Source of the DNA: a virus
IMG/VR virus record: IMGVR_UViG_3300029787_000203
Span: 1-32,111 of that record
Length of the DNA: 32,111 nucleotides
Reading direction: 5' to 3' (one strand)
The first letter of the stretch is position 1. Each line of letters begins with the position of its first letter. Both the position numbers and the translations under genes were made by a program. The notes beneath the pieces were generated by a model. The model saw nothing but the letters and a program-made list of their open reading frames with translations, was not told the DNA's origin and did not search any database. Of the stretch, positions 3,003 through 29,932 are shown piece by piece.

Positions 3003-4907
3003 ATGCCTTTTTCTAATTTTACAAATCTTGATTTCGATCAGATAAAAACATCAATTAAAGATTATCTAAGAGCAAATTCCAACTTTACGGACTTTGATTT
3101 TGATGGTTCAAACTTTTCTGTCTTAATTGACACTTTAGCATACAATACTTATATCACAGCATTCAACTCAAACATGGTTGTCAATGAATCTTTTCTAGAT
3201 TCTGCTACTTTGAGAGAAAATGTTGTATCTTTGGCAGGAAATATAGGTTACACACCTAGGTCTAGAACGGCAGCAAACGCACAGATATCATTTGATGCTA
3301 GTATTACTGATAATGTGAGTTCGGTGACCTTACAACCAGGTATAGTATGCACTGGAGATGTAGATAATGAAACATATACTTTTGCAATTACTGAACCTAT
3401 TAGTGCAAATGTTGTTGATGGGGTTGCAAAATTTGAAAGTATTAATGTTTATCAAGGAACTTATCTTGAAAAGACATTTAGGTACGATGGATCACTTGAC
3501 CAAAGGTTTATTTTAGACAATCCTTTCATCGATACCTCAAAAATTGTAGTTTATGTTAAAAATAGTGGTGATAGTGGAGATGGATCACAGTATTCTTTGG
3601 TAGATGATATTGTAAGTATTGATTCAAGTTCAAAAATATATTTAATTAAGGAAATACAGGATGAAAAGTATGAATTAAAGTTTGGAGATGGATATTTTGG
3701 TAAAAAATTAGGTTCTGGAGCAAATAAAGACGGAGATTTTATTACAGTTAGGTACATAACTACTGATGGTGAAGATGGAAATGGTGCTCAAAGGTTTTCT
3801 TTCTCAGGAAGACTTCAATCTGGAACAACTTTAGTCAATTTATCTTCAACTCCTTCAATTTCAACATTAATAAAGTCTCAAAATGGGGGAAATATTGAAT
3901 CAATTGATTCTGTTAAGTATTTTTCACCTCTAATATATTCATCACAGAACCGAGCTGTGACTTCTAGAGATTATGAAGCTATAATTAAGAAAATTTACCC
4001 TAATACAGAATCAGTTTCAGTAGTTGGTGGGGAAGAACTTGATCCACCAGAGTTTGGAACAGTTGCAATTAGTATAAAACCTAAAAATGGTGATTTAGTA
4101 TCGGATTTTTCTAAAAATCAAATTTTATCCAAGTTGAAACAATATTCCATATCTGGAATTAACCAAAAAATCATAGATTTAAAATTATTATATATTGAAA
4201 TTGATTCAAATGTATATTATAACAGTTCTCTTGTTACAGCAGCAGATTCATTAAAGGCAAATATTGTAAATACATTAAATACGTATTCAAAATCAATTAA
4301 TTTAAACAAATTTGGTGGTAGATTAAAATATAGTAAATTATTGAAGGTAATTGATGACACAGATCAGGCAATCACCTCAAATATTACTAAAATTAGAATG
4401 AGAAGGAACTTACAAGTAACAATAAACCGATTTGCACAATATGAATTATGTTTTGGAAATAAATTTTATGTTAATCTAAATGGATATAATATAAAATCAA
4501 CTGGATTTACTATTTTTGGTGAATCTGGAGTGTTATATTTAACTGATGTTCCCAATTCTGATCAAAAAACTGGTATTTTACAAATAATTAAAATATTAGA
4601 TGATAGCACAGTTAGAGTTGTAGTATCATCTGCAGGATCGATAGACTATGAGAAAGGTGAAGTAAATTTATCGACAATTAATTTTGAATCAACTGTTAAA
4701 CCAAATAATATAGTTGAGGTTCAAGTTTTTCCAAGATCTAATGATGTAGTTGGTTTGAAAGATTTATATGTTTCATTAGACGTTTCAAATAGTACAATAA
4801 ATATGGTTAGAGATGTAATATCATCAGGAGACGAAGTTTCTGGAGTACAATTTACCAGAGATTTTTATTCATCAAGTTATCCAAACGGTAAAATAATTAG
4901 AACATGA
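3003..4907 (+). CDS. gp6: baseplate wedge subunit gp6
   Basis: The 634-aa product is close to T4 gp6 (660 aa) and sits directly after gp25. gp6 dimers tie neighbouring baseplate wedges into the iris-like ring around the hub. The N-terminus (FTNLDFDQIKTSIKDYLRAN, then a DFDFDGSNFSVLIDTLAYNT segment) is typical of gp6/baseplate J-like proteins. A characteristic NRAVTSRDYEAIIKKIYPNT segment near residue 320 leads into VSVVGGEELDPPEFGTVAIS, matching the baseplate-J core. The C-terminal half is beta-rich. It starts 1 base after gp25 with AAGGT just upstream, and its TGA overlaps the ATG of the giant gene (ATGA), so wedge proteins are probably made in coupled amounts. Confidence 0.93.
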   Translation: MPFSNFTNLDFDQIKTSIKDYLRANSNFTDFDFDGSNFSVLIDTLAYNTYITAFNSNMVVNESFLDSATLRENVVSLAGNIGYTPRSRTAANAQISFDASITDNVSSVTLQPGIVCTGDVDNETYTFAITEPISANVVDGVAKFESINVYQGTYLEKTFRYDGSLDQRFILDNPFIDTSKIVVYVKNSGDSGDGSQYSLVDDIVSIDSSSKIYLIKEIQDEKYELKFGDGYFGKKLGSGANKDGDFITVRYITTDGEDGNGAQRFSFSGRLQSGTTLVNLSSTPSISTLIKSQNGGNIESIDSVKYFSPLIYSSQNRAVTSRDYEAIIKKIYPNTESVSVVGGEELDPPEFGTVAISIKPKNGDLVSDFSKNQILSKLKQYSISGINQKIIDLKLLYIEIDSNVYYNSSLVTAADSLKANIVNTLNTYSKSINLNKFGGRLKYSKLLKVIDDTDQAITSNITKIRMRRNLQVTINRFAQYELCFGNKFYVNLNGYNIKSTGFTIFGESGVLYLTDVPNSDQKTGILQIIKILDDSTVRVVVSSAGSIDYEKGEVNLSTINFESTVKPNNIVEVQVFPRSNDVVGLKDLYVSLDVSNSTINMVRDVISSGDEVSGVQFTRDFYSSSYPNGKIIRT

Positions 4908-7900
4908 TACAAACAGGTATTGTAAGTAAAGTAAAAATACAAGATGTCATATCTAACCAACTTCCTAATTTTATTAGGGATGAAAGTCCTCTGACGGTTG
5001 ATTTTTTAAAACAATATTATACTTCTCAAGAATATCAAGGTGGTCCTACTGACATATCTGATAATTTAGATCAATATTTAAATATTCAAAATTTAACTCC
5101 TGAAGTAATAGTAGATAGTGCAAAATTATCAGTTGGAATTGCAACTACAACAACCGAAATTGTTGTTTCATCTACAAAAGGATTTCCTAATCAATATGGA
5201 TTATTTAAAATTGATGATGAAATTATTACATATACTGGTATAACTACAAATAAATTTACTGGATGTATTCGTGGATTTAGTGGTATTACAAGTTATAGTT
5301 CAGATTCGAGCAATGAAGATTTGTTGTTTAGCACTTCAGTATCAGCAGATCATGGAATATCTTCAAATGTTCAAAATCTTAGTTCTTTATTTTTAAAGCA
5401 ATTTTATAAAAAATTCAAAAAAACATTTTTACCTGGATTAGAGGAAACAGAATTTCAAACAGATTTGGATGTTGGTACATTTATAGGTGAAGCAAGGTCA
5501 TTATATCAAACAAAAGGAACTGAAGAATCATTTAGAATATTATTTAATGTTTTATATGGAATAACACCTACAATTCTGAATTTAGAGGACAGGTTAATAA
5601 AACCATCATTTGCAAATTATGTTAGAAGAAGAGTTTGTGTAGCAGAATTAATAGAAGGTGATCCAATACAACTTAAAGGACAGTCTTTACTTAAAGGTTT
5701 AACTGGGCAGACACTCTTTAGAAGTGATCTTGATATCAATATTAATGCATCAATATCTGAAATTGAACCTTTTGAGAGAATAGATTCTGGATTGAGTGGA
5801 ATAACAACTTATTACAAAATTGGACTATTCGTTGGATATGATGAAAGTTCTGATGTAGCAGGTGATTTTGTGGTTGTCCCAAATACAAAGTCTATAGAAA
5901 ATGTATCAGTTGGATCTAGTGTAATAACAGTTGATTCTACAATAGGATTTGGAGTAACAGGAACAGTTATATCTGGTGTGAATACAATAACTTATACCGA
6001 TAAAACAATAAATCAATTTTTAAATTGTACAGGAGTTACTAGTCCTATATCTCCCATTCAGGATATTAGATCAAATGTAACATATTTTGGATTTGAAGAT
6101 GGAGATTTGGATAAAAAAGTAGTATTAAGATTAACAGGAGTATTATCCGAATTTGAACAAGAAGGTGATGTTGATGTGGAAGAAGGTGAGATAATTTCTG
6201 TAAAGAGTATTGGTGATAAAGTAGAGAATCCTACTACAGATAAAACATATAAGCAAAAATTTTGCAATTCATGGATTTATAATACCAGTGTATCATATTT
6301 TATAGATCGTATAGAATCTGGGACAATTTACTTATCAAGTAAAATTGATAGATCAAGTTTAAAATTGGGTGATTTTGTTGAAATAGTTGATAGGGATTCA
6401 AACCGAGTATTGTTTCCTCCAAATTCTAATATATCTCCAGCTATTGTAAATCAGATAACTGAGGATGATAATTCCATTACTTTAGATCAAATTAGTTTTA
6501 CTTTTGAGGAAGGTGCATCTTATAAAATAAGAAAAAAAATAAACAAAGCTAGAAGTTCGGGAGCACCACTTGAATTTGGTAATGATGTAATAACATCTGA
6601 TATTCAAAATGTTTATATTGAAGATGAAACTTCATATGTGACATCAAATTCTTTACCTTCTTTTGTTAATGGTACATCTGAATTTTCAAAAGAAATAAAT
6701 GCAAATATTAAAGATATTTCTCTAAATTTATCAAGTTCTAATGGAGGAAGTCTTTCTGGAGATACTACAGATCAACTTGATTTTACTATAATAAATTTTG
6801 CAAATGAAGTTCCTTTTAGAACTGGAGATAAAGTTTTTTATACTTATTCTAATGGTGATTCTCTTGTAGGATTAAACACTGGATCTTATTTTGTTGATGT
6901 TGTAGGTGAAAAAAGTATAAGTTTATATGGTTCACCTTCAGGTATTGATGATGGAAAGAATATAACTTTTTCAAAAAGTTCAAATGATGGAATTCATAAT
7001 TTTATTTTATTTTCTCAAAAATCTAGAGTAATTGGTGCACAAAAATTAATTAAAAAGTTTCCATTAGAACAAAATATATCTAATGGGGATAATGAATTAA
7101 CACCTGTTGGTCAAACTGGAATGTTGATTAACGGTGTTGAAATATCTAATTATAAATCAAATGATAAAATATTTTTTGGACCTTTAAATAAAGTTCAAGT
7201 TTTAAGTGGTGGAGATGGTTTTGATATAATTAATTTACCTAATATATCAATATCATCTGGAATTGGATCAACAGCTTTGGTTCAACCAGTTGTAAGTGGT
7301 AAAGTTATAGATGTATTTGTTGATCCTCAAAATTTTGATATTGATAATGTTATTTCTATTGGTGTAACTGGTGGAAATGGAACTGGATGTGTATTAGAAC
7401 CAGTTATAGGAGACAGATTTAGAGAAGAGTTCTTTGATTCAAGACCTACTACATCTGGTGGAGGAATAAACACTACCACTGTAGGTAGTCCAGATTCGAG
7501 AATAACTTTTAAAAATGATCATAATTTTATACAAGGTGAACCTATAGTATATGATTCTAATTTTAATAAAGGAATCGGAGTTGGAATAGGAACCTCAGTT
7601 TTAGTTAATCAGTCAGTTTACTATCCAAAAGTTATTAATAGTATAACAATAGAATTATATGAAACAGTTTCTGATTTAAATGCAGGAATTGGAACAATTA
7701 ATTTCAATGGTAGTAATGCTAATGGAGATCACATATTTAAAGTAGGGCCTAGAAAAACTATTTTAGACGTTAAAGTCATAGATGGTGGTAGTGGATATAC
7801 TAATAGAAAATTATCGGTTAAGCCAACTGGAATTTCTACAACAAGTAATTTAATAAAATTTGTAAATCATGGATTTGAAGATGGTGATTTAGTTGAATAT

Positions 7901-10900
7901 AGTGGAAATATTTCTGGACTCAATACAAATAACAGTTACTATGTATTGTTCAAAGATGATAATTCATTTGGTTTAAGTGATGCTGGAATAGGAGCTACTG
8001 TTATTTCAAATTATGAAAGAAGAAAAGAAGTCATATTAAGTTCACAAGGATCAGGATTTCAAGAATTTAAGTTTCCTGATATAAAAGTTTTTGCGGAATT
8101 TAGTACAATTGGTGCAGGATTGACACCATCTATTAATTTTACTCCAATAGTTAGAGGAACTATAGAACAAACTTATCTTTATGAAGAAGGTACAGGATAT
8201 GGTTCAACAGTTATTAATAATCATAAAAAACCAATCATAACATTAAAAAATGGAAAAAATGCTTCTTTTAAACCGACTGTAATAAACGGAAGAATATCTG
8301 GTATCGTAACTTCATTTATTGGACAAGAATATTTCTCTACCCCCGATCTTGATGTAATAGATCCTACAGGTAAAGGTGCAGGTGCCAAATTAAGACCAAT
8401 TATAGTAAATAATCAAATTACTAGTGTGATTATTGTAAATGCTGGAATTGGTTATTCTACAGATACATCAATTAATGTTAAATCTGCAGGCCAAAATGCA
8501 TTTTTTGATTCTGAGGTAAGATCGTTAACAGTTAACAAACATAGTGTTCTGGATAATTATCAACTTTTAGAAGATTCTGAAAATAAATTAAAATATTCTT
8601 TTACTGGATATGATGTTACAGTATTCAATGAAAATAATACCATCCCATCATCATTAATAGGTTGGGCTTATGATGGAAATCCAATATATGGTCCTTTTGC
8701 ATATGAAAATCCTGAAGATAATACTAGTAATTCAGGTACAGTTAAAAAATTAGTATCAAGTTATGTTGAAGATATCACTAATGTAATTGATAGACCATCT
8801 GGATTTACTGGTGGTTTCTTTATTGAGGATTACAAATTTGATAGTTCTGTTGGTGATTTGGACGAACATAATGGTAGATTTGAGAAAACACAAGAGTTTC
8901 CAAATGGTGTTTACGTGTATCACGCAACAGTTGGTAATTTAAACGTTCCAACATTTCCTTACTTTCTAGGTAATTCTTATAGATCTAAATCTATAGAATA
9001 TAATTTAGAAAACAACTTACAAACTAATTTTGACTTTAATTCAAATAATTTAATTAGAAATACTTTCCCATATAAAGTTGCGGATGATTTTGCTAATAAC
9101 GATTTTATTGTAGAAACGAATGAAATACAAAATCAAAAAATAGAAATAACATCAGTTTCTTCTGGTTCTGTAACAGGGGTTAATGTAGTTTCTGGAGGAT
9201 CAGACTATAAAGTAAATGAATTTTTAAACTTTAATAATGATGGTTCAGGAGGTAGTGGATTAATATCAATAATTTCTAAGGTAGATGGTAAATCTATTTC
9301 AACAGTTACTACTGAAGTTGGTATAAACACTAATGCAGTTATTACATGGTCAGAGAATAAAATAAACTTTTTCACGGATATTAATCATAATTTTAAAAAT
9401 AATGATGAAGTTAAAATATCAGGATTATCAACAGATATATCACAATTAAATAATTCATTTACAATAGGTGTATCCACATTTACTTCAACTACAATTTCTA
9501 CAATTACAGGATCACCATCAGCTGGTTTTACAACTGAAATATTTGTTTCTAATATACCAGATTCAGTTTCAGTTGGTAGTAGTATAGGAATTGGGACTGA
9601 AACATTAAAAATATTAAACATCTATAAAGATATAAATGTTCTAACCATTCAAAGAGACGCATCTTCTCCTTATGGAACTACTCACCCATCAGGGACTGAC
9701 GTAATATATTTACCAAAAAGTTTTTCAATTAACAAATCATTACCATATTTTGAATCTAATTTAAATGAAAAAGTATTTTTTAACCCATCACAAACAGTTG
9801 GATTGGGGACTGATGATGGGTCTGAAAATACTCTATCATTCTTTTTTGGTAATCAAAACATTATAAGAAACGTTCCCGTAAAACAAATTTATATTGAAAA
9901 TCATCCTTTCAAAACAAATCAAAGAATTAAATTTACAACACCGACTGGAGCTGGTGGTGAAAATATACCAATATCTAAAGATAATGGCATTTCCCAATTT
10001 AATTTACCAGAAACACTATATGTTGTTAATAAAAATATAAATTCTATTGGAATTAAAACTGAAATTAATTCTAGTGAAATACATTTTATGTCTGTACCAA
10101 CTATTGCTGAAGGTTTGCGTGATAGATATCTATTTGAAACAGTTTTTAGTGAAGTAACCTCAAAAGTTGAAAGAATAAAAACAACTATAAACACAATAGA
10201 ATCTCATGAATTAGAAAATGATGATCAAATATCATTAACACTTCAATCTAATTTATCAGTAGGAATTGGAACATCAACTTCAATAAAAGTTTCAAGAGAT
10301 TCTTTGACAGGAAACATTTTATTTGATCCTATAAATTTCAATTCTTCAGGAATTAATACTTTAACCAATTCAATTAATATTGCAAATCATGGTTTAAAAA
10401 TTGGTGATAAAATTAAATATAATTCCAATATTTTACCAGAGGGATTAGATAATAAAAATTATTTTGTATACAAAGTTGATGATGATAATATAAAATTATG
10501 TGAGACTAAATTAGATGTTAAAAAAGATATTCCAAATGTAACTGGTATAGGATCTACAGGAGGAACATCACAATCCATATCCCTAATTAATCCAAGAGTA
10601 GAAGTAGTTAAGAATAATAATTTAATTTTTGACCTTTCAGATTCTTCATTATCTGGATATAATTTTAAAATATATTATGATCAAGAATTTAGAAATGATT
10701 TCATATCTGTTGGTGTATCTACAATATTCAGTATTTCTACATCTGGATCAAATGGTTCGGTAGGATCTGCCTTGACAATAGGATATGGTAGTAGTATACC
10801 AAATGAATTATTTTATAATTTAGAAAAATCAGGAGCAATCAGTACTACTGATACTGATGTAAAAGATTACTCTAAGATATCTTTTGTTGATAGTCTTTAT

Positions 10901-17521: not shown

Positions 17522-19111
17522 ATGCCAGCTGTAGTAACAGATCAGTTTAGAATAGTAAACGCAAGTAATTTTGTAGATTCTGTATTAGATTCTAATAATT
17601 CTTATTATGTATTTTTAGGATTACCTAATCCAGCTATAGCTGGTTTTGGTAGAACTACCACTTGGAATGATTCAAGTGGAACTCCAGATCCAATAGATAA
17701 TCAAAAATATTTGACACATTACAGAAATACTTCTTTATTTGGAAAAAAAATTAACACCTCAAACATTAGGAGAGTTGTTAAAAAACATTCATGGACTGCA
17801 AATACAAGATACGATATGTATCGTCATGATTATAGTGTAAATAATCTAACACCCAATTCCAAAACTGGAAGTTTATATCGAAGTAATTATTATGTTATAA
17901 CTTCAGAGTTTAAAGTTTATATTTGTTTAGATAATGGAGGTTCAGGAACTCCTGATAGCACTGATTCTATTGGTGAACAGAGTAAAGATGAACCAACATT
18001 TACTGATTTGGAACCAGCAGCAGCAGGTGTTCAGGATAACTATACATGGAAATACTTATTTACAGTTTCACCAAGTGATGTTGTAAAATTTGATTCAACC
18101 GAATATATAGTTTTACCAAATGATTGGTCAACATCGACTGATGCTCAGATACAGGCAGTAAGAGAGGCAGGAGATTCTGATATTAATAAAAACCAAATTA
18201 AAAAAGTTTTTATTAAAAATGGTGGATCTGGATATGATGGAAATCAGACTGGATCACGAACTGTTGACATTATAGGTGATGGTGTAGGTGCAAAAGCTTT
18301 GGTTAGTTATACTTCAGGTGTAATAACTGATGTAATTGTAACTGCAGGAGGTTCTGGATACACTTTTGCGATGGTTGATTTAAGTAATTTAGCATTTAAT
18401 ACTTCTGGAACTCGTGCTAATTTAATACCAATTATACCACCATCAAAGGGTCATGGATTTAACATCTATGATGAACTTGGTGCTGATAAAGTTTTAGTTT
18501 ATTCTAGGTTTGATGATTCTACAAAAGATTTTCCTACTGATACACATTTTGCACAGGTAGGGATAATTAAGAATCCAAGTAAATATGATGTTGTAGGAAT
18601 ATCCACAGGATCTCAATTTTCTTCTTTATCATCCATTAGATTATCCTCTGGTATAACTGGAGTTACTGATTACAGTACATTGATTGGTGTAGGAATAACA
18701 CAATCTGTTACTGATGGTGTGGCAAGAGGAACTGTTGCTTCTTATGATCAAGATACTTTTGTTTTAAAATACATTCAAGACAGAAGTTTGAATCTAAATC
18801 AAACATCATATGATACTACTGATTATGCAAATATGAATTCTAGAGCAAAACTTTTACCTTTTGAATCATCTAGTGAAAGTGTAATTGGATCTGGAGCATT
18901 ATCATTTACAAAAAATATTAATACAAATTTTTCTGGTATAACAACAGTAGTTGGTAATAAACAGATCAATTTGGGTGTTGAGTTTACAAATGGACTTGCT
19001 AATCCTGAAATAAATAAAAAGACTGGAGATGTTATTTACATCGACAATCGAAAAGAAGTTGAAAGAAACATTAGGCAAAAAGAAGACGTTAAAATTATTC
19101 TAGAATTCTAA
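17522..19111 (+). CDS. gp8: baseplate wedge subunit gp8 (expanded)
   Basis: The 529-aa product opens with MPAVVTDQFRIVNASNFVDS and continues VLDSNNSYYVFLGLPNPA, then WTANTRYDMYRHDY and YRSNYYVITSEFKVYICLDN, which is the signature of the gp8 family in marine T4-like phages. T4 gp8 (334 aa) is a dimer in the baseplate wedge that contacts gp7 and gp6. This version is about 195 residues longer. Much of the extra length is explained by a segment around residues 225-290 with two GGSGY repeats (IKNGGSGYDG and VTAGGSGYTF) of the same kind as in the giant protein. The PEINKKTGDVIYIDNRKEVE segment near the C-terminus is typical of this protein group. Four bases separate it from the next gene. Confidence 0.9.
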   Translation: MPAVVTDQFRIVNASNFVDSVLDSNNSYYVFLGLPNPAIAGFGRTTTWNDSSGTPDPIDNQKYLTHYRNTSLFGKKINTSNIRRVVKKHSWTANTRYDMYRHDYSVNNLTPNSKTGSLYRSNYYVITSEFKVYICLDNGGSGTPDSTDSIGEQSKDEPTFTDLEPAAAGVQDNYTWKYLFTVSPSDVVKFDSTEYIVLPNDWSTSTDAQIQAVREAGDSDINKNQIKKVFIKNGGSGYDGNQTGSRTVDIIGDGVGAKALVSYTSGVITDVIVTAGGSGYTFAMVDLSNLAFNTSGTRANLIPIIPPSKGHGFNIYDELGADKVLVYSRFDDSTKDFPTDTHFAQVGIIKNPSKYDVVGISTGSQFSSLSSIRLSSGITGVTDYSTLIGVGITQSVTDGVARGTVASYDQDTFVLKYIQDRSLNLNQTSYDTTDYANMNSRAKLLPFESSSESVIGSGALSFTKNINTNFSGITTVVGNKQINLGVEFTNGLANPEINKKTGDVIYIDNRKEVERNIRQKEDVKIILEF

Positions 19112-19115
19112 ACAA

Positions 19116-22100
19116 ATGGCACAAAAAATCAATTTAAATGCAAGTCCATACTATGATGATTTCGATAGTGAAAAGAACTTTCATAAGGTTTTATATAAAC
19201 CTGGTTTTCCAGTGCAAGCTAGAGAATTAACGCAGCAACAATCAATATTACAAAATCAAGTAGAAAAGTTTGGTGATCACGTTTTTAAAGATGGTTCAGT
19301 AGTAATACCTGGTGCAGTTGGATTTAATATTCAAAATAATGCAGTAAAATTAAATAATACTAATTTCAATACTGATATATCTGTTTATATCAAAAATTTT
19401 ATAGGAAAAAGAATAAAAGGATCTGAGTCTGGGATTGAGGCAGTTGTAAAATCAGTCTCCCTCCCCGATGGAGGTCAAGTAAGTGATATTACTTTATATG
19501 TAAATTATTTGAGTGCTGGTAGTGATTCACAATTCAGTTCATTTACTGATGGTGAGTCATTAAGTTCAAATGAAAATATAGTATATGGAAATACAACAAT
19601 AACTGCCAACACTCCTTTTGCATCTTTGATTTCTGTAGATGCAACTGCAGTAGGTTCTGCTGCTTTTATTTCTAAAGGTGTATACTTTATAAGAGGATTT
19701 TTTGTAAACGTATCAGATCAATCAATTATATTAGACCATTATACAAACACCCCATCATACCGAATAGGACTACAAATTGAAGAACTAATTGTCAATGCTA
19801 AAGAAGATAATAGTTTGTTTGATAATGCTAAAGGATTTAGTAACTTTGCAGCACCTGGTGCAGATAGATTAAAAATAAAACTTATCCTAACTAAAAAAGC
19901 ATTAACAGATAAAAATGATACTGATTTTATTGAGGTATTGAGACTTGATGAAGGAAAACTCAAGATAATAGAGACAAAGAGTGACTATAATAAAATTCGT
20001 GACTGGATCGCAGGAAGAACTTATGATGAATCTGGTGATTATAGTGTAGAACCATTCAACATGGGTTTATTCAATTCATTAAATGATAAATTAGGAAATA
20101 ATGGTTTATTTTTTGAAGATGAAAAAACTGAACAAGAAAACACACCATCAGATGATTTGATGTGTTTAAAAGTATCTGCAGGTGAAGTTTATGTAAGAGG
20201 ATACGATATTGAAAAAACAGGAACTACAATTATTGATGTTGATAAACCAAGAGATGTTGGAATCAGAAGTGATATAGGTGTCGGTTTTGAAATGGGTAAT
20301 ATATTAAAATTGAATAACGTTACAAAAGGTACTGCTGTTCAGGGAAGTATTGTAAAATTATTTGATAATTTTAATTCTACAGGAACTAATATAGGAAGTG
20401 CAAGAGTTTATTCATTTAATTTGGAGGACTCTGCATATGAAGATGTAACTACAAAATGGGAGTTAAGATTATTTGATGCTCAAACAAATACCGATTTGGT
20501 CTTAAATCAATCAGTAAGTAATACAGAATTACCAGAAGGATCATTTATTAAAGGTAAAAATAGTGGTGCTAGTGGATTTGCTGTAGGAGCTGGAGGTGGA
20601 TCAACAGTTGTTTCGTTGAATGAAACTTCAGGATCATTTAATGTCGGTGAACAGATACAAATTAATGGTGTTGATTTTCCTAGAACAATAGGTATAAAAA
20701 CAGAATATGCAGCACAAAACATAAGATCTATAGGAGATGGTAATAATTTAAAAGGTGATGTGGTTATTGAAAAATTTAATTTACCAAATGCCATAACTGA
20801 AGTATCTGTAACTGCTGGTATTGCAACTGCATCATTAAGTCAAGGATTCAAAGGTCTTAGAAAAGGATCTCTAGTTGTATATCGAAAAGCAGGATCCACA
20901 TTAGATACATTTAATACAGTCTCATCTATAAATGCAAATGGAACAATCACACTTGCTTTAATACCTGATTCTGTTGCTGGAGTATATGATGGATCTCTTA
21001 CATCTGGAACAGAAGTAGTTAACATGTTTCTTGGTGCTCCAGTTATCAGAGGCACAGGAGCTTTGTACGTACCTTTAAATCCTAATATTGCTGATGTTGA
21101 TCTCACAGAATCAAAAATAAAAATTACAAAACAAATATCTAAAAACGCAAGTTCAAATCAATTAACAATAAACACTAGTGATATTACAGATGTTTCAGAT
21201 GTAATATTTGATACTTTTGATCAAGAAAGATATACCATGTCTACTGCCAGTAATGGTAGTCCCTTGGCAATTACAAATGACACTTTTTCATATGGCACTG
21301 ATGGTGCTTCTGTTACATTTACAAATATTGCTGCGAATGATAGTAAAACGGTAAATGTATCTTTAATTAAAAATAAAGTAAAATCCAAGATAAAACAATA
21401 TAACAGAAGTCAAACATTAAATGTAACTAGATCAAAAAATGCAGAATCTGGAAGTGTTGCAGGTGGGAATGGTGGTTCAATTGCAGACGGTCTCACTTTT
21501 GATGCTAGATATGGATTGAGAGTTCAAGACGAAGAAATATCTTTAAATTATCCAGATGTTGCTAAGTTTTTAGCAGTTTATGAATCAACGAATGCATCTG
21601 CACCAGTATTAGATAAGTTAACATTTACAAGCACCGTTGCTGTACAAGACAATGCTATTATTGGTGAAAATATAATTAGTCAAGATAGTAATATAATTGC
21701 AAGAGTTGTATCATCACCATCAGCAAATACATTAGAAATAGTTTATCTTACATCAGGAAAATTTCAGACAGGTGAATTAGTTCATTTTGAAGAATCAGAC
21801 ATAAACACAAATATTGAATCAATCACAATTGGAAAATATAAAAATGTAACAAATTCATTCACCTTAGATAAAGGTCAGAAAGATGAATTCTATGATTATT
21901 CTAGATTAATTCGTAATCGAAATGTTTCTGAACCAAGTGCCCAATTATTGGTTGTATTTGATTATTATTCTGTTTCCTCCGATGATGGAGATGTATTTAC
22001 GGTAAGAAGTTATGATGAAGAGAGATTTTCAAAAGACATACCTGATATTGGTGAATTCAATATAAGAGCTACTGATACACTTGATTTTAGACCAAGAGTT

Positions 22101-25100
22101 TCTGTATATAATCCTGCAACAGATACAGGATCACCATTTGAATTCTCCACAAGAGATTTTAGTGGAACTTCAATATTACATTATTTTACACCAAATGAAT
22201 CTTCAACTGCTAGTTATAGTTTTTATCTAGGTAGACAAGATACAGTTTACATGAATAAATTTGGTGAATTTGTCTATGAAAAAGGTGTTTCATCTCTTGA
22301 TCCAAAACCACCAACCATGGTTGGAGAGTTGATGGAACTTGCAACAATTTCATTACCACCTTACTTATATAATCCTCAAGATGCAACTTTAACTCTTATC
22401 GATAATCGAAGATTCACTATGAGAGATATTGGTAATATTGAAGATAGAGTAACAAATTTAGAAGAAACTACAACATTATCTCTTTTAGAAGTTAGTGCTC
22501 AAACATTACAAATACAAGATGAAGAAGGTAAAAATAGATTTAAAAGTGGTTTGTTTGCAGATCCTTTTAAAAATTATAATTTCATTAGTGAGGATTCATT
22601 AATACAAATAAATCCTGAATCAGAAGAATTAATACCATTTAGAACAAGGGATACACTTGCCTCTCAAATTAAACCTGCAGAAATTACAATAAGTTCACAG
22701 TTAGATTTCAATACAGATTTTCCTTTATTTGATACCAACGTGAAAAAAACAGGAAATGTTGTAACATTAAATTATGAAGAAGTTGAGTGGATTACACAAC
22801 CATATGCAACAATAAGTGGAGATACAAATGATATCATAAATGTAAATCCTTATGAGCTACCTATATTTGAGGGTGAAGTAGAATTAGATCCTGCATTTGA
22901 TAGATGGACTCGATCTACACAACTTGCAGATCACAATATACAACAAACGGGAACTACTAGAAACGAAATTATAAATCTGGGAGAAGTACGACGACAGTTC
23001 TTAATGGGTGGTGGTATTCGAAGAGATTTAAGTCGATTTGGTTTAGGGACAAATGAAAGAGTACAATTGGGTCAAACAATTGTAAGGTCTAATACAACAG
23101 TTACTAGGCAAAATAATTTAACTTCAACATCTAATGATGATTTTGTTAGATCAAGAAATATTCAATTTATATCTGAAGGATTCGTTGATTTTGTTGAAAC
23201 ATATGTGTTCTTTGATGGACAAAAAATATTTGATGTAATTCCAAAATTACTTGAAATAACACCAACTAAGAATGGATCTGTATCTGGATCAAATGGTGTC
23301 TATAAGATTGGAGAGGAAGTTCATGCTCTCAATGAAGAGGGTAATGTAATTATGAAATTTAGATTATGTCAACCAGATCATAAATCTGGAAAATATAATA
23401 ATCCATCAGAAACATATTTTAATAATCCTTATACTTCAGGTATAACAGAAATATCTTCTAATTATAGTCAATCATCAACAGTTTTAAATGTTGATACAAA
23501 ATCACTAGCTGAGGAAGCACAAGGTAAATATTTTGGTTATGTTACAAAAAATGCACAACTAGTTGGTCAAGAAAGTGGTGCTACTTCATACGTGAAAGAT
23601 ATAAGATTAATCACCGATGCTTATGGTGATGTGCTTGGTTCATGTTTCATTCGTAATCCACATACACAACCAGCACCACCAGTTAAAATACAAACAGGTG
23701 TAAAAGAATTTAAAGTCACAACAAGTCCTACAAATGAAAATGTAGAACCAACACAAAAATTTGGAGTCATAACTGCAGAGGAACAATATGATTCTAGAGG
23801 AACAGTCGAAGAATGGCAGACTACAGTTACAACAACAACCAACACTACAAATTTCCTTATTAGAGGCACTATACGAAGAAGTAGAAATGTTGATCCTCTT
23901 GCACAAACATTTATAGTTGGTGGGAATGTTAATGCTCCAAGTGCTCAAGATGCTAATAAAGATAAAAATGGTGCTTTTATAACTGCGGTTGAAGTTTATT
24001 TTGCAACAGTAGATACTGTGACAAATTCTCCAATAAGATGTGAAATAAGAACAACTATTGCAGATGCAAGACCATCAATGGAAGTTATTGGAAGAAGCAG
24101 GACTCTTAAACCCAAGGGTACTGATGCTAATGGAAATGAAGTTACACTCATTGAAGCTGATCCAAATGAGGCAAGTAAAGCAACCAAATTTACTTTCCCT
24201 GAACCAATTTATCTGGAACCAGGTACATCTTATTCTTTTGTCTTACTTGCACCACGAAGTGTTGCATACAATGTCTGGACAGGAAGACATGGTGGTACTG
24301 CCGTAAATCCATCAACAATTACAGGAGCAAATCCTGGTTCATCTATAATATATTCAACTCAGTATGGTGCTGGTTCAATATTTAAATCACAAAATGGTGC
24401 TCTTTGGACTGAAGATCAGCATCAAGATATGACCTTTAAATTATATAAAGCCAAATTCACATCACAATCAGGTTCAGCATTCTTTAATAATCCAGATTTG
24501 GATGAAAGTAATGGTTATGAAACTTCAATGATAGATAATCCTTTATTTACTCTATCAAAAACAGGATCAATAGGTATAACCACAAACTTAGGAATGGGAT
24601 CATTCCTTACACCAGGTCGAAAAATTTGTGGAGGTCAAAATACAAGTACTGCTGTAATCACAGGTGTTGGTTGTTCTGTATCAACCTTAACTGCACTTCC
24701 GAATATTGGAGGATCAAATTACACAACTGACTCTGATGTTGAAACATTTGCAATAACTGGTAAAGGTTCTGGTTTAAAAATAGATATTGATACTATTGAT
24801 AGTAATGGTGCCATAACAGCTGTTAATACAACTCCAGTTGTAAGAGGAACTGGATATCAAGTTGGGGATGTAGTTGGTATTGTAACTTCAACCGTAGGAA
24901 CAAAAGGAGGACAGGGTGAGGGTGCTCAGATAACAATTGGAAGTATTGATGGTATTGATACATTATTCCTAACAAATATACAGGCTGATAATGGTTCAAA
25001 CGGATTCCAAGATGGAACTCAAATTAAATATTTTAATGATGCTGGAACTGTTGTAGCAATGGGTGCCACGGGTGCTATTCGTTCTAGTGGAGTTGCATTT

Positions 25101-26501
25101 GATGGTGGAGCACATGCAGGTAATGTACTGTTTGTCGAACAATTCAATCACGGAATGTATTCAACATCTAATAAAGTAAAAATTAGGCAAATTGAATCTG
25201 ATGTAGAACCAACTATAATAACTGCAGATTTAAGTAAAACCGAAACATCAATTATCAGTGTTGCATCAACATCTCAATTTACTAATTTTGAAGGAATAGC
25301 AGTCGGTGCTGCAAATACTGGATATGTGAAAGTTGGAAGTGAGATTATAGGATATGAATCTGTTGGAACAGGTGTACTAAACATTGGTAATAGTCAGAGA
25401 GGTGTTGATAATACAGTTGTAATAGATCATTCACTTAATTCAGTAATTAAAAAGCATGAAATTGCTGGAGTATCAATAAGAAGATTAGAGACAACTGATA
25501 CAACAGGTCTTTCAGTAGTTGATTATCCTAGACAACCTATAGATCTTGATACTTATCATGTAACTTTTGATAGGTCTAAAAATGGAACAAATAGATCCAC
25601 TGATACTGCTACTTCTCCTCAATTATCATTTACTCATGATGAATTTGTAGGTGGATCAAACGTAAGAGCAACCCAGAATATACTATACAGTGCTATAGTT
25701 CCGAGATATGATGTATTGACCCCTACTGGTGTGGAAGGTGCTGTAACAGGCATACAGGCATCAATTAGAAGTGTTTCTGGTACAAGTGCGAGTGGAAATG
25801 AAGTATCATACTTAGATGATGGATTTCAAAATGTTCAACTTAATACTATCAACACATTTGATAAAGTCAAATTAGTCGCATCTAAAATAAATGAGAATCA
25901 AAATTTAATCGGTCTACCATCAAATAAATCATTTACAACTGTTCTTAATTTAAATTCAAACGATGAAAATTTATCTCCTATGATACACTTAACTAGTGGT
26001 TCTGAAACTGAATTTATAGGTAATAGATTAGATAGACCAGTTAATTTAGAAAATTATGATAGTGATGGTCGTGTAAATTCAGTAATTGATGATCCTCATT
26101 CTGCAATTTACATGAGTAATAGAGTGAATCTTAAAAATCCTGCAACATCATTAAAAGTATTATTAAGTGCATTTAGACCTGAATCGTCAGACTTTAGAGT
26201 TCTTTATAGTTTAGTTAGACCAGATTCTAATGAAGTTGAACAATCATTTGAACTATTTCCTGGTTTTAAAAATACTACAAAAACAAATAATGATGGTTTT
26301 ATTGTAGATGATGAATCCAAAAATGATGGTAGACCTGATACAATAGTTACACCAAGTTTAGATAATCAATTTAAAGAATATCAATTTACTGTTGATAATC
26401 TACCTGAATTTATAGGATTTACAATTAAAATTGTAATGTCAGGAACGAATCAGGCTCAACCTCCAAGAATTAAAGAATTGAGAGCAATTGCTGTTAAGTG
26501 A
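19116..26501 (+). CDS. 2461-aa DUF4815-type virion structural protein
   Basis: The N-terminus (MAQKINLNASPYYDDFDSEK, then FHKVLYKPGFPVQARELTQQ) is the classic start of DUF4815 phage structural proteins. Around residue 1100, DIGNIEDRVTNLEETTTLSL forms a short coiled coil. Around 1590-1730 lies a conserved 'DPLAQTF' to 'LEPGTSYSFVLLAPRS' block with YNVWTGRHGG. Around 1911 there is a GTGYQVGD repeat, and around 2046-2112 an 'RG' module. The C-terminus (FRVLYSLVRPDSNEVEQSFE to PPRIKELRAIAVK) looks like a beta-sandwich, possibly carbohydrate-binding. By order it occupies the T4 gp9/gp10 position, so a wedge-pin or fibre-attachment role at the baseplate rim is likely but inferred. No Shine-Dalgarno sequence is evident; an AATAAATA lies 107 bases upstream inside gp8. 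Confidence 0.88.
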   Translation: MAQKINLNASPYYDDFDSEKNFHKVLYKPGFPVQARELTQQQSILQNQVEKFGDHVFKDGSVVIPGAVGFNIQNNAVKLNNTNFNTDISVYIKNFIGKRIKGSESGIEAVVKSVSLPDGGQVSDITLYVNYLSAGSDSQFSSFTDGESLSSNENIVYGNTTITANTPFASLISVDATAVGSAAFISKGVYFIRGFFVNVSDQSIILDHYTNTPSYRIGLQIEELIVNAKEDNSLFDNAKGFSNFAAPGADRLKIKLILTKKALTDKNDTDFIEVLRLDEGKLKIIETKSDYNKIRDWIAGRTYDESGDYSVEPFNMGLFNSLNDKLGNNGLFFEDEKTEQENTPSDDLMCLKVSAGEVYVRGYDIEKTGTTIIDVDKPRDVGIRSDIGVGFEMGNILKLNNVTKGTAVQGSIVKLFDNFNSTGTNIGSARVYSFNLEDSAYEDVTTKWELRLFDAQTNTDLVLNQSVSNTELPEGSFIKGKNSGASGFAVGAGGGSTVVSLNETSGSFNVGEQIQINGVDFPRTIGIKTEYAAQNIRSIGDGNNLKGDVVIEKFNLPNAITEVSVTAGIATASLSQGFKGLRKGSLVVYRKAGSTLDTFNTVSSINANGTITLALIPDSVAGVYDGSLTSGTEVVNMFLGAPVIRGTGALYVPLNPNIADVDLTESKIKITKQISKNASSNQLTINTSDITDVSDVIFDTFDQERYTMSTASNGSPLAITNDTFSYGTDGASVTFTNIAANDSKTVNVSLIKNKVKSKIKQYNRSQTLNVTRSKNAESGSVAGGNGGSIADGLTFDARYGLRVQDEEISLNYPDVAKFLAVYESTNASAPVLDKLTFTSTVAVQDNAIIGENIISQDSNIIARVVSSPSANTLEIVYLTSGKFQTGELVHFEESDINTNIESITIGKYKNVTNSFTLDKGQKDEFYDYSRLIRNRNVSEPSAQLLVVFDYYSVSSDDGDVFTVRSYDEERFSKDIPDIGEFNIRATDTLDFRPRVSVYNPATDTGSPFEFSTRDFSGTSILHYFTPNESSTASYSFYLGRQDTVYMNKFGEFVYEKGVSSLDPKPPTMVGELMELATISLPPYLYNPQDATLTLIDNRRFTMRDIGNIEDRVTNLEETTTLSLLEVSAQTLQIQDEEGKNRFKSGLFADPFKNYNFISEDSLIQINPESEELIPFRTRDTLASQIKPAEITISSQLDFNTDFPLFDTNVKKTGNVVTLNYEEVEWITQPYATISGDTNDIINVNPYELPIFEGEVELDPAFDRWTRSTQLADHNIQQTGTTRNEIINLGEVRRQFLMGGGIRRDLSRFGLGTNERVQLGQTIVRSNTTVTRQNNLTSTSNDDFVRSRNIQFISEGFVDFVETYVFFDGQKIFDVIPKLLEITPTKNGSVSGSNGVYKIGEEVHALNEEGNVIMKFRLCQPDHKSGKYNNPSETYFNNPYTSGITEISSNYSQSSTVLNVDTKSLAEEAQGKYFGYVTKNAQLVGQESGATSYVKDIRLITDAYGDVLGSCFIRNPHTQPAPPVKIQTGVKEFKVTTSPTNENVEPTQKFGVITAEEQYDSRGTVEEWQTTVTTTTNTTNFLIRGTIRRSRNVDPLAQTFIVGGNVNAPSAQDANKDKNGAFITAVEVYFATVDTVTNSPIRCEIRTTIADARPSMEVIGRSRTLKPKGTDANGNEVTLIEADPNEASKATKFTFPEPIYLEPGTSYSFVLLAPRSVAYNVWTGRHGGTAVNPSTITGANPGSSIIYSTQYGAGSIFKSQNGALWTEDQHQDMTFKLYKAKFTSQSGSAFFNNPDLDESNGYETSMIDNPLFTLSKTGSIGITTNLGMGSFLTPGRKICGGQNTSTAVITGVGCSVSTLTALPNIGGSNYTTDSDVETFAITGKGSGLKIDIDTIDSNGAITAVNTTPVVRGTGYQVGDVVGIVTSTVGTKGGQGEGAQITIGSIDGIDTLFLTNIQADNGSNGFQDGTQIKYFNDAGTVVAMGATGAIRSSGVAFDGGAHAGNVLFVEQFNHGMYSTSNKVKIRQIESDVEPTIITADLSKTETSIISVASTSQFTNFEGIAVGAANTGYVKVGSEIIGYESVGTGVLNIGNSQRGVDNTVVIDHSLNSVIKKHEIAGVSIRRLETTDTTGLSVVDYPRQPIDLDTYHVTFDRSKNGTNRSTDTATSPQLSFTHDEFVGGSNVRATQNILYSAIVPRYDVLTPTGVEGAVTGIQASIRSVSGTSASGNEVSYLDDGFQNVQLNTINTFDKVKLVASKINENQNLIGLPSNKSFTTVLNLNSNDENLSPMIHLTSGSETEFIGNRLDRPVNLENYDSDGRVNSVIDDPHSAIYMSNRVNLKNPATSLKVLLSAFRPESSDFRVLYSLVRPDSNEVEQSFELFPGFKNTTKTNNDGFIVDDESKNDGRPDTIVTPSLDNQFKEYQFTVDNLPEFIGFTIKIVMSGTNQAQPPRIKELRAIAVK

Positions 26502-26736: not shown

Positions 26737-27078
26737 ATGGCAGCTGTATATGTTTCGAATTTGGTTATCAATGCAGGATCAGATTTTAGTCAAACTTTCG
26801 ATTTAGTAGAGAGTGATGATTCAGGTCCATTAAATTTGAGTGGATTTTCAGTCGCAGCTCAATTTAGAAAACATGCTGGTAGTACTTCAAAACATGATTT
26901 TACTACTACTGTAATGGATGCTTCTGAGGGAAAAATATTAATTTCTTTAACCGCATCAGCATCCAATGTACCTAAACCAGGTCGATATGTATATGATATT
27001 GTGATAACAAATGCAGCAAGTGAAAAAACAAGAGTCGTGGAGGGATCCGTGCTCTTAAGAGAAGGAGTTACTCGATAA
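26737..27078 (+). CDS. small beta-rich virion protein, 113 aa
   Basis: The product has alternating strands: VSNLVINAGSDFSQTFDL, then GPLNLSGFSVAAQFRKHAGS, KILISLTASASNV, GRYVYDIVITNA and VVEGSVLLREGVTR. The pattern 'InaGsdFsqtF.L ... dLsGfsv.aqfRk ... G.i.lsLta ... G.YvYDivi ... r.veGsv.l...vTR' resembles the immunoglobulin-like adaptor domains that anchor receptor-binding parts in phage tails (BppU N-terminal type). This is pattern resemblance only. It is followed through a TAATG overlap by the repeat fibre gene, so it may be the base on which that fibre sits. Confidence 0.75.
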   Translation: MAAVYVSNLVINAGSDFSQTFDLVESDDSGPLNLSGFSVAAQFRKHAGSTSKHDFTTTVMDASEGKILISLTASASNVPKPGRYVYDIVITNAASEKTRVVEGSVLLREGVTR

Positions 27079-27650
27079 TGCCAATTAAAGTCAGAGTTGG
27101 TCAATCAGATGCAATAAAAATACTATCCAGTGCTGGTGGTGGATCCGTTAGCGCTCAAACTGCTAAAAATGTTATAGGTGGTATTGCTTCTGTAACTCAG
27201 TTGAGTGTTTCTGGAATATCAACTTTTAATGGTAATATCAATGCAATTGGAATTTCAACTTTTGTTAATTTAAATTCAACAAATTTAAATGTTGCAGGAA
27301 TTTCAACTTTTGTAGGTATTGTAACCACAAATAATGATTTATTTGTTGGTGGGGATCTTTTTACTAAAGGTAATTTAGTTTTAGATAATATAATAGGTTC
27401 TTCTCTAAATATCACAGGATTATCTACTTTTGTTGGTAATGCTCAATTTAACGGTAATGTTTCTATTGCAGGAACTCTTACTTATGAAGATGTAACTAAC
27501 ATAGATGCAGTGGGTCTTATTACTGCTAGAACAGGAGTAAGAATAACAACTGGTGGATTAATTGTAAATGCAGGTGTTTCTACTTTCAATGCAGGTGTTA
27601 CTGTTGCTGGAATATTAACTGCAGGACTTATAGATGGGGGTGTATTTTAA
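27078..27650 (+). CDS. repeat-built fibre-like protein in fibritin slot
   Basis: The 190-aa product has a short N-terminal anchor (MPIKVRVGQSDAIKILSS), then repeats of [GA]-[IL/V]-S-T-F at residues 46, 58, 74, 114 and 166 separated by strand-like V/I/N-rich segments, and a 'DAVGLITARTGVRITTGG' block. This is typical of trimeric beta-helical fibre shafts in marine phages. It lies immediately before gp13, where T4 has wac (fibritin, the neck whisker), and both junctions are TAATG overlaps. A collar or whisker fibre, or a short tail fibre, is therefore the best guess. There is no intramolecular chaperone or obvious receptor-binding tip at the C-terminus (ends LIDGGVF). Confidence 0.78.
   Translation: MPIKVRVGQSDAIKILSSAGGGSVSAQTAKNVIGGIASVTQLSVSGISTFNGNINAIGISTFVNLNSTNLNVAGISTFVGIVTTNNDLFVGGDLFTKGNLVLDNIIGSSLNITGLSTFVGNAQFNGNVSIAGTLTYEDVTNIDAVGLITARTGVRITTGGLIVNAGVSTFNAGVTVAGILTAGLIDGGVF
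27213..27587 (+). repeat. GISTF-coding 15-bp repeats, five copies
   Basis: Near-identical 15-base units (GGAATTTCAACTTTT and variants) begin at 27213, 27249, 27297, 27417 and 27573 and encode GISTF, GISTF, GISTF, GLSTF and GVSTF. Start-to-start distances are 36, 48, 120 and 156 bases, all multiples of 12 (four residues). Confidence 0.8.
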
Positions 27651-28495
27651 TGGCTAAACCAAGTACTAGACAAGGACTTATTGACTACTGTTTTCGAAAA
27701 TTAGGTGCACCAGTTTTAGAAATAAACGTAGATGATGATCAGGCAGATGATTTAATTGATGATGCTCTCCAATTATTTAATGAGAGACATTTTGATGGTA
27801 TTGAGAGAATGTACCTTAAGTACAAACTAACTCAGGAAGATATAGATCGTGGAAAAGCTAATGGAACTTCAGGAGTTGGAATTGTTACTACTACTGGAAA
27901 TTCTACAAGTATCACTGGTTTAGGAACCGTTACTTCAAATTTCTACGAAACATCTAATTTTATTCAAGTTCCTGATTCGGTTGTTGGAATTGATAGAATA
28001 TTTAAATTTGACACTAGTTCAATATCTGGTGGTATGTTTAGTATAAAATATCAGTTATTTTTAAATGATTTATACTATTTTAATTCAGTCAATTTACTTC
28101 AATATTCAATGACAAAAAGTTATCTTGAAGATATTGATCACTTACTTACAACAGATAAACAAATAAGATTTAACAAGAGGCAAAATAGATTATACTTAGA
28201 TATTGATTGGGCTGCACAAGAAGTAGGAACATTCTTAGTAATTCAATGTGATAGAATTTTAGATCCTGATAATTTTACTGGTGTTTATAACGATAGTTTC
28301 TTAAAATTATATCTCACATCATTAATAAAGAGACAATGGGGTCAAAACTTAATTAAGTTTCAGGGTGTCAAACTTCCTGGTGGTTTAGAATTAAATGGCA
28401 GACAGATTTATGATGATGCTGAAAAAGAATTGGAAAGTATTAGAGAAAGACTTATTTCAGAATATGAGTTACCACCTCTCGATTTTATAGGATAG
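27650..28495 (+). CDS. gp13: neck protein gp13
   Basis: The 281-aa product (T4 gp13 is 309 aa) starts MAKPSTRQGLIDYCFRKLGA and continues with PVLEINVDDDQADDLIDDAL and QLFNERHFDGIERMYLKYKL, the conserved N-terminal part of the gp13 neck family. gp13 forms the ring under the portal that seals filled heads and receives the tail. Conserved later parts include VGIDRIFKFDTS, WGQNLIKFQGVKLPGG and the C-terminal helix QIYDDAEKELESIRERLISE. Residues about 70-105 form a Gly/Thr/Ser-rich insert (GTSGVGIVTTTGNSTS...) in the style of the repeat modules elsewhere. GGGGGTG just before the TAATG start is a strong Shine-Dalgarno-like sequence. Six bases separate it from gp14. Confidence 0.92.
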   Translation: MAKPSTRQGLIDYCFRKLGAPVLEINVDDDQADDLIDDALQLFNERHFDGIERMYLKYKLTQEDIDRGKANGTSGVGIVTTTGNSTSITGLGTVTSNFYETSNFIQVPDSVVGIDRIFKFDTSSISGGMFSIKYQLFLNDLYYFNSVNLLQYSMTKSYLEDIDHLLTTDKQIRFNKRQNRLYLDIDWAAQEVGTFLVIQCDRILDPDNFTGVYNDSFLKLYLTSLIKRQWGQNLIKFQGVKLPGGLELNGRQIYDDAEKELESIRERLISEYELPPLDFIG

Positions 28496-28501
28496 TCAAT
28501 A

Positions 28502-29932
28502 ATGGCATTAAATCCCTTTTTTCTACAAGGATCACAAAGTGAGCAAAGACTTGTTCAAGATCTTATCAATGAACAACTAAAAATGTATGGTGTTGAGGTA
28601 ATGTATTTACCTCGTAGAATAGTCAATAAAGATAGTATTTTTACTGAAATACAATCATCAAAATTTAGTGATAATTTTGCAATTGAAGCATATGTGAATA
28701 CTTTTGATGGATATGGTGGTGCTGGTGATATCATGACCAAATTTGGAATGAGTTTGAAGGATGAACTTATAGTTACAATATCAAAAGAAAGATTTGAAGA
28801 TTTTATTTCTCCATTTTTAGAAGGTTTGCCAGAGGGTGAGATAGAAGTTACAAGTAGACCAAGTGAGGGAGATTTAATTTATTTTCCTTTAGGTAGAAGA
28901 ATTTTTGAAATTAAATTTGTAGAACATGAAAAACCTTTTTATCAACTAGGTAAAAATTATGTTTACGAACTTAGATGTGAACTATTTGAACTTGAAGATG
29001 AGATGGGAGGATGGAATCAACTCAGTACAACATCTGATGAGATTGATGATGCACTTGTGGATCAAGGATATATTACGTCACTGCAACTTATATCAATTGG
29101 TTCAACAGCAACTTTAGGTGTAAATACAGCAACTGGATATGTTAGAAAGATATTCTTAAATGAAGACGGATATGATTATACGAAAATACCAACTGTTGCA
29201 ATAGGAACTGCACCTTCGGGAGGAACAAATGCAACTGCTGTTGCAATTACAACATCAATAAATGGTGTTAATTCAGTTAAAGAAATACTAATTGTAAATC
29301 CTGGTGCTGGATATACGATGACTCCTTCAGTAACAATTGTCAGTGCTGCATCAACAGTTTTAGGAGTTGGAAGTACATCTTATGGTGTAGGTGCTGCTGC
29401 AACAGCATTATTGGTTACAAATAGTGCTGGTATTGGAACTGTTACAATTACATCAGGTGGAGATGGGTATCCAACAGCACCAAATCTATTCTTTACAACT
29501 CCTACATCTGGAGTTGGAACTGCTACTGGAAGAGTTTTAGTTAGTGTTGGTAATACTGTCAATCAAGTTCTTATTTCGGATGCTGGTATTGGATATACTA
29601 GTGGAACTGGAATTGCAACAATTTCCTCTCCACCTGTTGTTACAGGTATTGGAACTTATCAATTTAATGAACTTGTAACAGGTTCAAAATCTAGTGCAAC
29701 TGCAAGAGTCAAGTCTTGGAATGTAACTACAAATACATTGAAACTGGGAACAACAAATGGAACTTTTGTTGCAGGTGATATAATAGTTGGATCTACATCA
29801 TCAGCAAGTTACACTGTTGATTTTATTGAGTCTGCAGAATTTGCTGATAAATATGATAAAGGTGATGAAATCGAAACAGAAGCTGATGCAATTATCGATT
29901 TCTCAGAAAATAATCCATTTGGTACATTTTAA
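28502..29932 (+). CDS. gp14: neck protein gp14 with large repeat insertion
   Basis: The N-terminal about 185 residues (MALNPFFLQGSQSEQRLVQD, then YGVEVMYLPRRIVNKDSIFT, YGGAGDIMTKFGMSLKDELI and FPLGRRIFEIKFVEHEKPFY) match the gp14 neck family, as does the acidic C-terminus (about residues 446-476: FADKYDKGDEIETEADAII to NNPFGTF). T4 gp14 is about 256 aa; here about 255 extra residues (roughly 190-445) split the conserved ends. The insert is Gly/Thr/Ser/Val-rich with four GGxGY-type repeats (EDGYDY, NPGAGY, SGGDGY, DAGIGY) and would decorate the neck exterior. gp13 and gp14 together complete the head. It ends in a TAATG overlap with gp15. Confidence 0.92.
   Translation: MALNPFFLQGSQSEQRLVQDLINEQLKMYGVEVMYLPRRIVNKDSIFTEIQSSKFSDNFAIEAYVNTFDGYGGAGDIMTKFGMSLKDELIVTISKERFEDFISPFLEGLPEGEIEVTSRPSEGDLIYFPLGRRIFEIKFVEHEKPFYQLGKNYVYELRCELFELEDEMGGWNQLSTTSDEIDDALVDQGYITSLQLISIGSTATLGVNTATGYVRKIFLNEDGYDYTKIPTVAIGTAPSGGTNATAVAITTSINGVNSVKEILIVNPGAGYTMTPSVTIVSAASTVLGVGSTSYGVGAAATALLVTNSAGIGTVTITSGGDGYPTAPNLFFTTPTSGVGTATGRVLVSVGNTVNQVLISDAGIGYTSGTGIATISSPPVVTGIGTYQFNELVTGSKSSATARVKSWNVTTNTLKLGTTNGTFVAGDIIVGSTSSASYTVDFIESAEFADKYDKGDEIETEADAIIDFSENNPFGTF

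Follow-up and report, generated by a model that had tools for sequence, protein, structure and literature searches.

Genes of the locus

The stretch of DNA analysed here, the window, is the complete IMG/VR record IMGVR_UViG_3300029787_000203 (32,111 bases) and represents part of the genome of a marine, T4-like myovirus. By gp14, its nearest isolates are Synechococcus phage S-SRM01 (55%) and Prochlorococcus phage P-SSM2 (50%), and the genes of the window were named by comparison with the annotated regions of these two phages. They comprise gp25 (2600-3001), gp6 (3003-4907), gp7, which encodes a giant protein (4904-17488), gp8 (17522-19111), a gene for a DUF4815 protein (19116-26501), gp13 (27650-28495), gp14, encoding the neck protein (28502-29932), and gp15 (29932-30729). 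The subject of this study is a short beta unit with a GGxG[YF]-type motif that recurs in gp7, gp8, the DUF4815 protein and gp14. All units and barrels described below lie on the + strand.

A homologous unit in four virion proteins

The first-pass annotation of this DNA had proposed that one small beta module is common to these otherwise unrelated virion proteins. We built a profile exclusively from gp14 (289 copies out of 79 gp14 homologs); homologs for the profile tests were taken from public viral contigs, and reversed and shuffled sequences served as controls. In the window, the gp14-only profile matched gp7 at residues 3929 (E 1.7e-6) and 1169 (E 2.8e-5) and gp8 at residue 223 (E 2.8e-4). 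At a threshold of at least 6 bits, 197 matches were obtained in gp7 homologs (0 in reversed, 0.7 in shuffled sequences), 86 in gp8 homologs (0 and 0.3) and 13 in DUF4815 homologs (0 and 0.3), while the homologs of gp13, gp15, gp6 and gp25 yielded none. Thus the check that had been named for the proposal, whether the profile of one protein fails on the others, was run, and the profile did reach them, above controls. Profiles from gp7 or gp8 copies also matched the other proteins, with 0 reversed matches at 8 bits or more. Since the members of these two profiles had been picked with a mixed profile, it is the test with gp14 copies alone that is independent. A union profile overran the unit boundary in later rounds (from 45 to 78 positions), and the A3 alignment was used in its place.

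The strict motif GGxG[YF] occurs seven times in the window (gp7, 4; gp8, 2; gp14, 1; DUF4815, 0), and at 11627 in gp7 it does not mark a unit by profile. By itself, a search for the strict motif undercounts the units, of which the window holds four in gp14, two in gp8, two weak ones in DUF4815 and eight clear ones in gp7. At the level of sequence, the looser GGxG[YF]-type motif is confirmed as part of a real homologous unit of about 42 residues present in all four proteins. When 35 units were compared with Pfam, no family matched more than one unit (best E 0.026), and a scan against NCBIfam gave no consistent family. The named Pfam families of the immunoglobulin (Ig) type (I-set, Big_2, fn3) fail to recognise the units with their own profiles; this argues that the unit lies outside the named Ig sequence families, but it does not speak against the more loosely defined structural class. 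In the open-access literature we found nothing on the motif itself.

Anatomy and predicted structure of the unit

The units follow the consensus xGxIxxVxIxxxGxGYxxxPxxxI....GxGxxA. AlphaFold models were obtained for gp14, with a predicted local distance difference test (pLDDT) score of mostly 80-95 in the insert and a poor core, and for gp7 residues 730-1235 (mean pLDDT 86). In both, the predicted order is strand A, GxGYxxxP loop, short strand B, GxGA loop and strand C, which leads into the next strand A, in line with the expectation that the copies share one fold. The modelled strands are A 256-266 and B 277-280 in gp14 and, in segment numbering, A 442-450, B 460-464 and C 471-480 in gp7, with a block pLDDT mostly above 85. 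A search of BFVD names no outside fold, because its best matches are the cyanophage baseplate proteins themselves. The whole gp7 model gave no significant Foldseek match in the PDB, and the VIA rows are mostly FCCH-like barrels, so that the absence of other families there is no evidence.

A sequence search of the PDB pointed to the tail-spike Dpo31 (residues 450-461 and 490-506, E 0.0057). Taken alone, Dpo31 reached 16.9 bits, and the best of 2000 shuffles 8.1; both motifs lie inside its domain D3* (434-536). According to PMC13317679, D3* is Ig-like, protrudes from the beta-helix and distantly resembles sugar-binding domains (Z 2.9). Dpo31 D3* is a probable case of a solved structure with two units, judging from the sequence match.

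Units of gp14, gp8 and the DUF4815 protein

The four copies predicted for gp14 were borne out, at residues 211-254 (29132-29263, 38.8 bits), 256-308 (29267-29425, 32.8 bits), 308-350 (29423-29551, 37.7 bits) and 350-395 (29549-29686, 30.4 bits); at low thresholds, a partial fifth match sometimes appears ahead of unit 1. The array sits between a T4-like core, matching T4 gp14 with a Z of 8.8, and a conserved C-terminal NPFG peptide. In the model, a small EF-Tu/eIF2-gamma-like barrel seems to hold the array as an insert; the C-terminal part of this barrel (residues ~385-445, together with 187-200) is encoded at 29654-29836. The match to the EF-Tu and eIF2-gamma barrels is weak (Z 5.3-5.5, 3.8 Å over 73-79 residues, rows spanning model residues 187-444). 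The same region, gp14 385-445, contains a second shared module, FNELVTGSkSsATARVKSW..F.aGd.i.G, with 40 matches of at least 8 bits in DUF4815 homologs (0 reversed) and 13 in gp8 homologs (0 reversed). In S-SSM7, a match to the lectin-like Laminin_G_3 (PF13385; E 7.6e-6, 26.6 bits, cutoff 27.6) lies between the unit runs of gp14. A 753-residue gp14 at another locus (L051, 10001-12259) has units flanking a long insert that appears lectin-like by eye, in a place like that of the S-SSM7 match; against Pfam, this protein matched the neck protein family only.

Both copies expected in gp8 were likewise found, at residues 223-265 (18188-18316, 34.5 bits) and 265-306 (18314-18439, 35.6 bits). The pair occupies the identical place in Kyanoviridae phages (P-HM2, P-SSM2), pf16, rhizobiophage RL38J1 and pelagiphage Mosig; T4 gp8 is without it. 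For the DUF4815 protein, about one copy had been proposed. The presence of the unit stood but its number did not, as two weak copies were obtained, at residues 1863-1891 (24702-24788, 10.8 bits) and, with the variant GTGYQVGDVV, at 1897-1943 (24804-24944, 6.6 bits).

Units and barrels of gp7

For gp7, bit scores refer to the A3 profile on the window, and fractions give the homologs with a unit at the mapped position. The GGxGY unit at residues 758-799 (7175-7300; 23.7 bits; position 7208 in 55/61) is followed by a probable degenerate partner without GxGY (SGKVIDVFVDPQNFDI..TGGNGTGCVLEPVIG; ~799-838, 7298-7417), which gave no profile match and is suggested by its sequence pattern, conserved A2 columns and model strands. 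Adjacent to it, FCCH-like beta barrel 1 (~839-949, 7418-7750) is a neighbour domain and not a unit. A second GGxGY unit (952-988, 7757-7867; 13.1 bits; position 7784 in 51/71) runs into FCCH-like barrel 2 (~966-1059, 7799-8080). Then follow a weak, probable unit with GSGF (~1035-1083, 8006-8152), for which 5/72 homologs reach 5 bits and A2 columns G320, G322, F326 and P329 are invariant, and a unit with GTGYGST (~1085-1128, 8156-8287), a weak profile match (6.4 bits with u4) with A2 columns G367, Y370 and G371 invariant. The strongest gp7 unit (IGQEYFSTPDLDV; 1128-1169, 8285-8410) scored 40.0 bits, with position 8324 occupied in 73/73, and is followed by a GxGY unit (1169-1209, 8408-8530; 29.7 bits; position 8432 in 69/74).

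Further downstream, a unit (SGGSDYKVNEFLNF) lies at ~1420-1459 (9161-9280; position 9188 in 41/74, up to 25 bits, the window itself being weak with 7.8 bits). A group of three comprises units at 2044-2083 (11033-11152; 22.1 bits; position 11060 in 68/76), 2087-2122 (INEGFEYSSDKTL; 11162-11269; 19.1 bits; position 11204 in 57/77) and 2122-2164 (11267-11395; 29.1 bits; position 11312 in 74/77). The unit at ~3565-3600 (LVGGGKSYKDPKIIV; 15596-15703) is weak, with position 15632 in only 14/69 and a maximum of 15.6 bits. Towards the C-terminus, a GGSGY unit (3929-3972, 16688-16819; 30.0 bits; position 16712 in 60/70), the one hit by the gp14-only profile at E 1.7e-6, is followed by a unit at 3973-4013 (16820-16942; position 16856 in 51/67), which has 6.5 bits in the window and up to 23.6 bits among homologs. 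All nine gp7 positions listed by the first-pass annotation are unit positions among homologs, that at 15632 being weak, whereas the units at 8324 and 11204 had been missed.

The two barrels with which the units alternate are similar to the ubiquitin E1 FCCH domain and to the endosialidase stalk barrel. In VIA alignments, barrel 1 matched UBA1/UBA6 FCCH in the top rows with a Z of 7.9, under Z 8 (2.5-2.6 Å over 77-79 residues), and barrel 2 matched endosialidase 3ju4 (Z 6.9, 2.4 Å over 71 residues). By sequence, the Pfam match to E1_FCCH (PF16190; E 0.0014 for barrel 2) reached 19.1 bits, short of the curated cutoff of 29.5. Elsewhere in gp7, a YHYH domain (PF14240, E 6.3e-24) is encoded at 8645-8932 (residues 1248-1343). 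Outside the four genes, a 113-residue protein (26737-27078) gave a sub-cutoff match to an LtfC-like beta-sandwich (PF23926, E 1e-4).

Pairing, inheritance and spread

The units come mostly in pairs. Runs of two occurred in 80 of 83 cases in gp8, and among bacterial and prophage sequences taken together even-numbered runs outnumbered odd ones (32 versus 9). Homologs of gp14 have four units at lengths of 459-486 amino acids and six at 540, 553 and 562 amino acids.

The first-pass annotation had further suggested that copies of the module arose and were transferred from gene to gene within this genome. In a recent sense this did not hold: for 723 of 725 copies the nearest copy was in another genome, for 722 it was in the same protein, and for none was it in another protein of the same genome. 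The order of the gp14 copies was kept in 249 of 250 comparisons. Gene-conversion tracts at the DNA level, another expectation, did not appear either, since the longest exact word repeated inside the region has 18 bases, does not run from module to module, and no word of 20 bases is repeated. Gene conversion and recent duplication were ruled out by the nearest-neighbour test together with the lack of a 20-base exact repeat. From the nearest-copy pattern, the gp14 order and the lack of such a repeat, we conclude that the module reached the different genes at an early time; by these sequence comparisons, its dispersal is ancient and was followed by vertical inheritance. The gp8 insertion reaches beyond cyanophages, and the gp14 insertion is absent from Mosig, pf16 and RL38J1.

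Phage genomes were scanned whole in six frames, and bacterial and related loci were sought with a single two-unit sequence as query. The module proved far more widespread than the four proteins of one genome to which it had been assigned. Varying sets of gp5 (the hub/lysozyme protein), tail fibres, gp7, gp8, gp14 and DUF4815-type proteins carry units in P-SSM2, S-SRM01, P-HM2, S-PM2 and S-SSM7. Mosig has units in its gp15, S-PM2 and Stenotrophomonas phage IME-SM1 have them in the tail sheath, and P-HM2 has them in one head protein. Phage matches with checked annotation fall into baseplate, hub, fibre, neck, sheath-stabiliser, sheath and head genes, the rest being some large unnamed open reading frames. 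No unit match was obtained in the whole genome of T4, including gp7, gp8 and gp14.

In bacterial genomes, units occur in P2/Mu-type sheath proteins and one lambda-like tail-tube protein of prophages, among them GGxGY pairs in Bartonella and Methylobacterium sheaths, as well as in SusD lipoproteins and a pectate-lyase-like beta-helix protein, so that their setting is mostly virion or extracytoplasmic. A SecD-like protein encoded by a Dehalococcoidales metagenome-assembled genome (L250, 5467-7245) has four units. In a Pseudomonas prophage, a tail-tube protein of the lambda-like type (L233, 5662-6393) has one unit pair, and its PHROGs matches to neck, baseplate and fibre families arise from this pair only.

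Possible role of the units

The unit family, the proteins that carry it, its tendency to pair, its ancient vertical inheritance and its absence from T4 are demonstrated, and we consider it on balance probable that the unit is half of an Ig-like domain, inserted long ago at exposed sites and serving accessory display or adhesion. The Ig-like fold that the literature gives for Dpo31 D3*, the mostly virion or extracytoplasmic setting of the units and the lectin-like match in S-SSM7 gp14 also favour this reading. A tandem pair would form one small beta-sandwich domain of ~80 residues. Such domains would have entered exposed loops or termini more than once, here in gp7, gp8, DUF4815 and gp14 and elsewhere in hub, fibre, sheath, tail-tube, gp15 and head proteins. 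Projecting from the particle, they might attach weakly to envelope or exopolysaccharide or extend other binding domains away from the particle, and might thereby raise adsorption. Surface exposure in this phage, adhesion and the class of ligand are suggested by analogy; an adhesion or display role has been proposed for phage Ig-like domains (available text of PMC9230969). Several observations weigh against this proposal. Foldseek gave no significant PDB match for the unit region of the gp14 and gp7 models. The Dpo31 match covers 17 residues only (E 0.0057 across the PDB), and because it is this short we can only infer the Ig-like fold. Runs of three units also occur, the copies in gp5, the hub, need not face outside, and the SecD-like protein indicates that adhesion is not universal.

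The chief rival to adhesion and display is that the units are rigid spacers or cement between virion subunits, at the neck collar and the baseplate periphery, without a ligand; the scaffold would be reused because its insertion leaves the host protein undisturbed. The alternation of units with FCCH-like barrels in gp7, as in phage stalks, and the conserved positions and order in gp14 and gp7 agree with a spacer, and the available text of PMC9230969 gives stability as an alternative role of added Ig-like sheath domains. However, a lectin-like match lies between the unit runs of S-SSM7 gp14, units occur in SusD glycan-binding proteins, and Dpo31 D3* protrudes and does not pack (available text of PMC13317679). 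We regard a purely structural role as quite possible, though short of probable. Multiplication and movement between the genes of this genome, with the copies kept alike by gene conversion, would fit the presence of one unit family in four adjacent structural genes, but it is very improbable in view of the nearest-copy counts, the lack of a shared 20-base word and the orthologous gp8 insertion in pf16, RL38J1 and Mosig; ancient spread inside the lineage is possible. Chance or convergence, with a glycine-rich beta-turn motif arising often in beta-rich virion proteins, is the least credible explanation: the motif is short and many units have low pairwise identity, but the matches extend over the full 43 positions of the profile, reversed or shuffled sequences give almost none when the thresholds are kept equal, gp13, gp15, gp6 and gp25 of the same loci give none, and order and spacing are conserved.

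A far-reaching extension of the adhesion proposal, which we regard as unlikely, is that the GxGY pair defines an unnamed superfamily of adhesion domains built from half-domains in phages and bacterial surface proteins, and that neck, baseplate, hub, fibres and sheath of cyanomyophages all display one binding activity, the whole virion sticking to one class of host glycan. Although Pfam and NCBIfam have no entry for the unit, it is found again and again in the biggest structural genes of abundant marine phages. Giving it a name would account for some of the long unannotated stretches in cyanophage gp7, gp8, gp14 and DUF4815 and would remove false annotation where PHROGs neck, baseplate and fibre profiles match unrelated proteins through the unit. 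It also provides a testable claim on how such phages stick to cells.

Comparison with known systems

The unit probably works like the promiscuous Ig-like domains of phages and joins that loose kind outside the named Pfam Ig families. The promiscuity of Ig-like domains among phage virion proteins has been described by Fraser et al. ('a tale of promiscuity and deceit', cited through PMC9230969); Hoc is an example (PMC10385173). Like them, the units are extra domains, probably of beta-sandwich type, located in structural proteins of the virion. They are common to unrelated proteins and phages (T4-like phages, the podovirus Carin-1, lambda-like tail tubes, P2/Mu-type sheath prophages) and apparently dispensable, being missing from the same protein in relatives (T4; gp14 of Mosig, pf16 and RL38J1). 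For both, weak carbohydrate binding may be proposed. Unlike them, the unit goes unmatched by the Ig, Big and fn3 models of Pfam, and it would be a half-domain repeat of ~42 residues with a GxGY loop, found in twos and in tandems of four to six.

Dpo31 D3* of Cobetia phage Carin-1 (PDB 28lx, 28mg) carries the GxGY motif twice, ~40 residues apart, and is likewise inserted into, and protrudes from, a host fold (PMC13317679). It differs in being a single pair in a podovirus tail-spike with a short sequence match, and the available text of that paper names no such motif or family. The added domains of contractile tail sheaths, Ig-like insertions off the core, are comparable to the GGxGY pairs in the sheaths of IME-SM1, Bartonella and Methylobacterium, but the available text of PMC9230969 describes them by structure and not as a sequence family. 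The E1_FCCH and endosialidase stalk barrels alternate with the units in gp7; in fold and sequence they are different, neighbours of the unit and not relatives. Similarly, Laminin_G_3 stands beside the unit runs in S-SSM7 gp14 as a separate domain, distinct from the unit.

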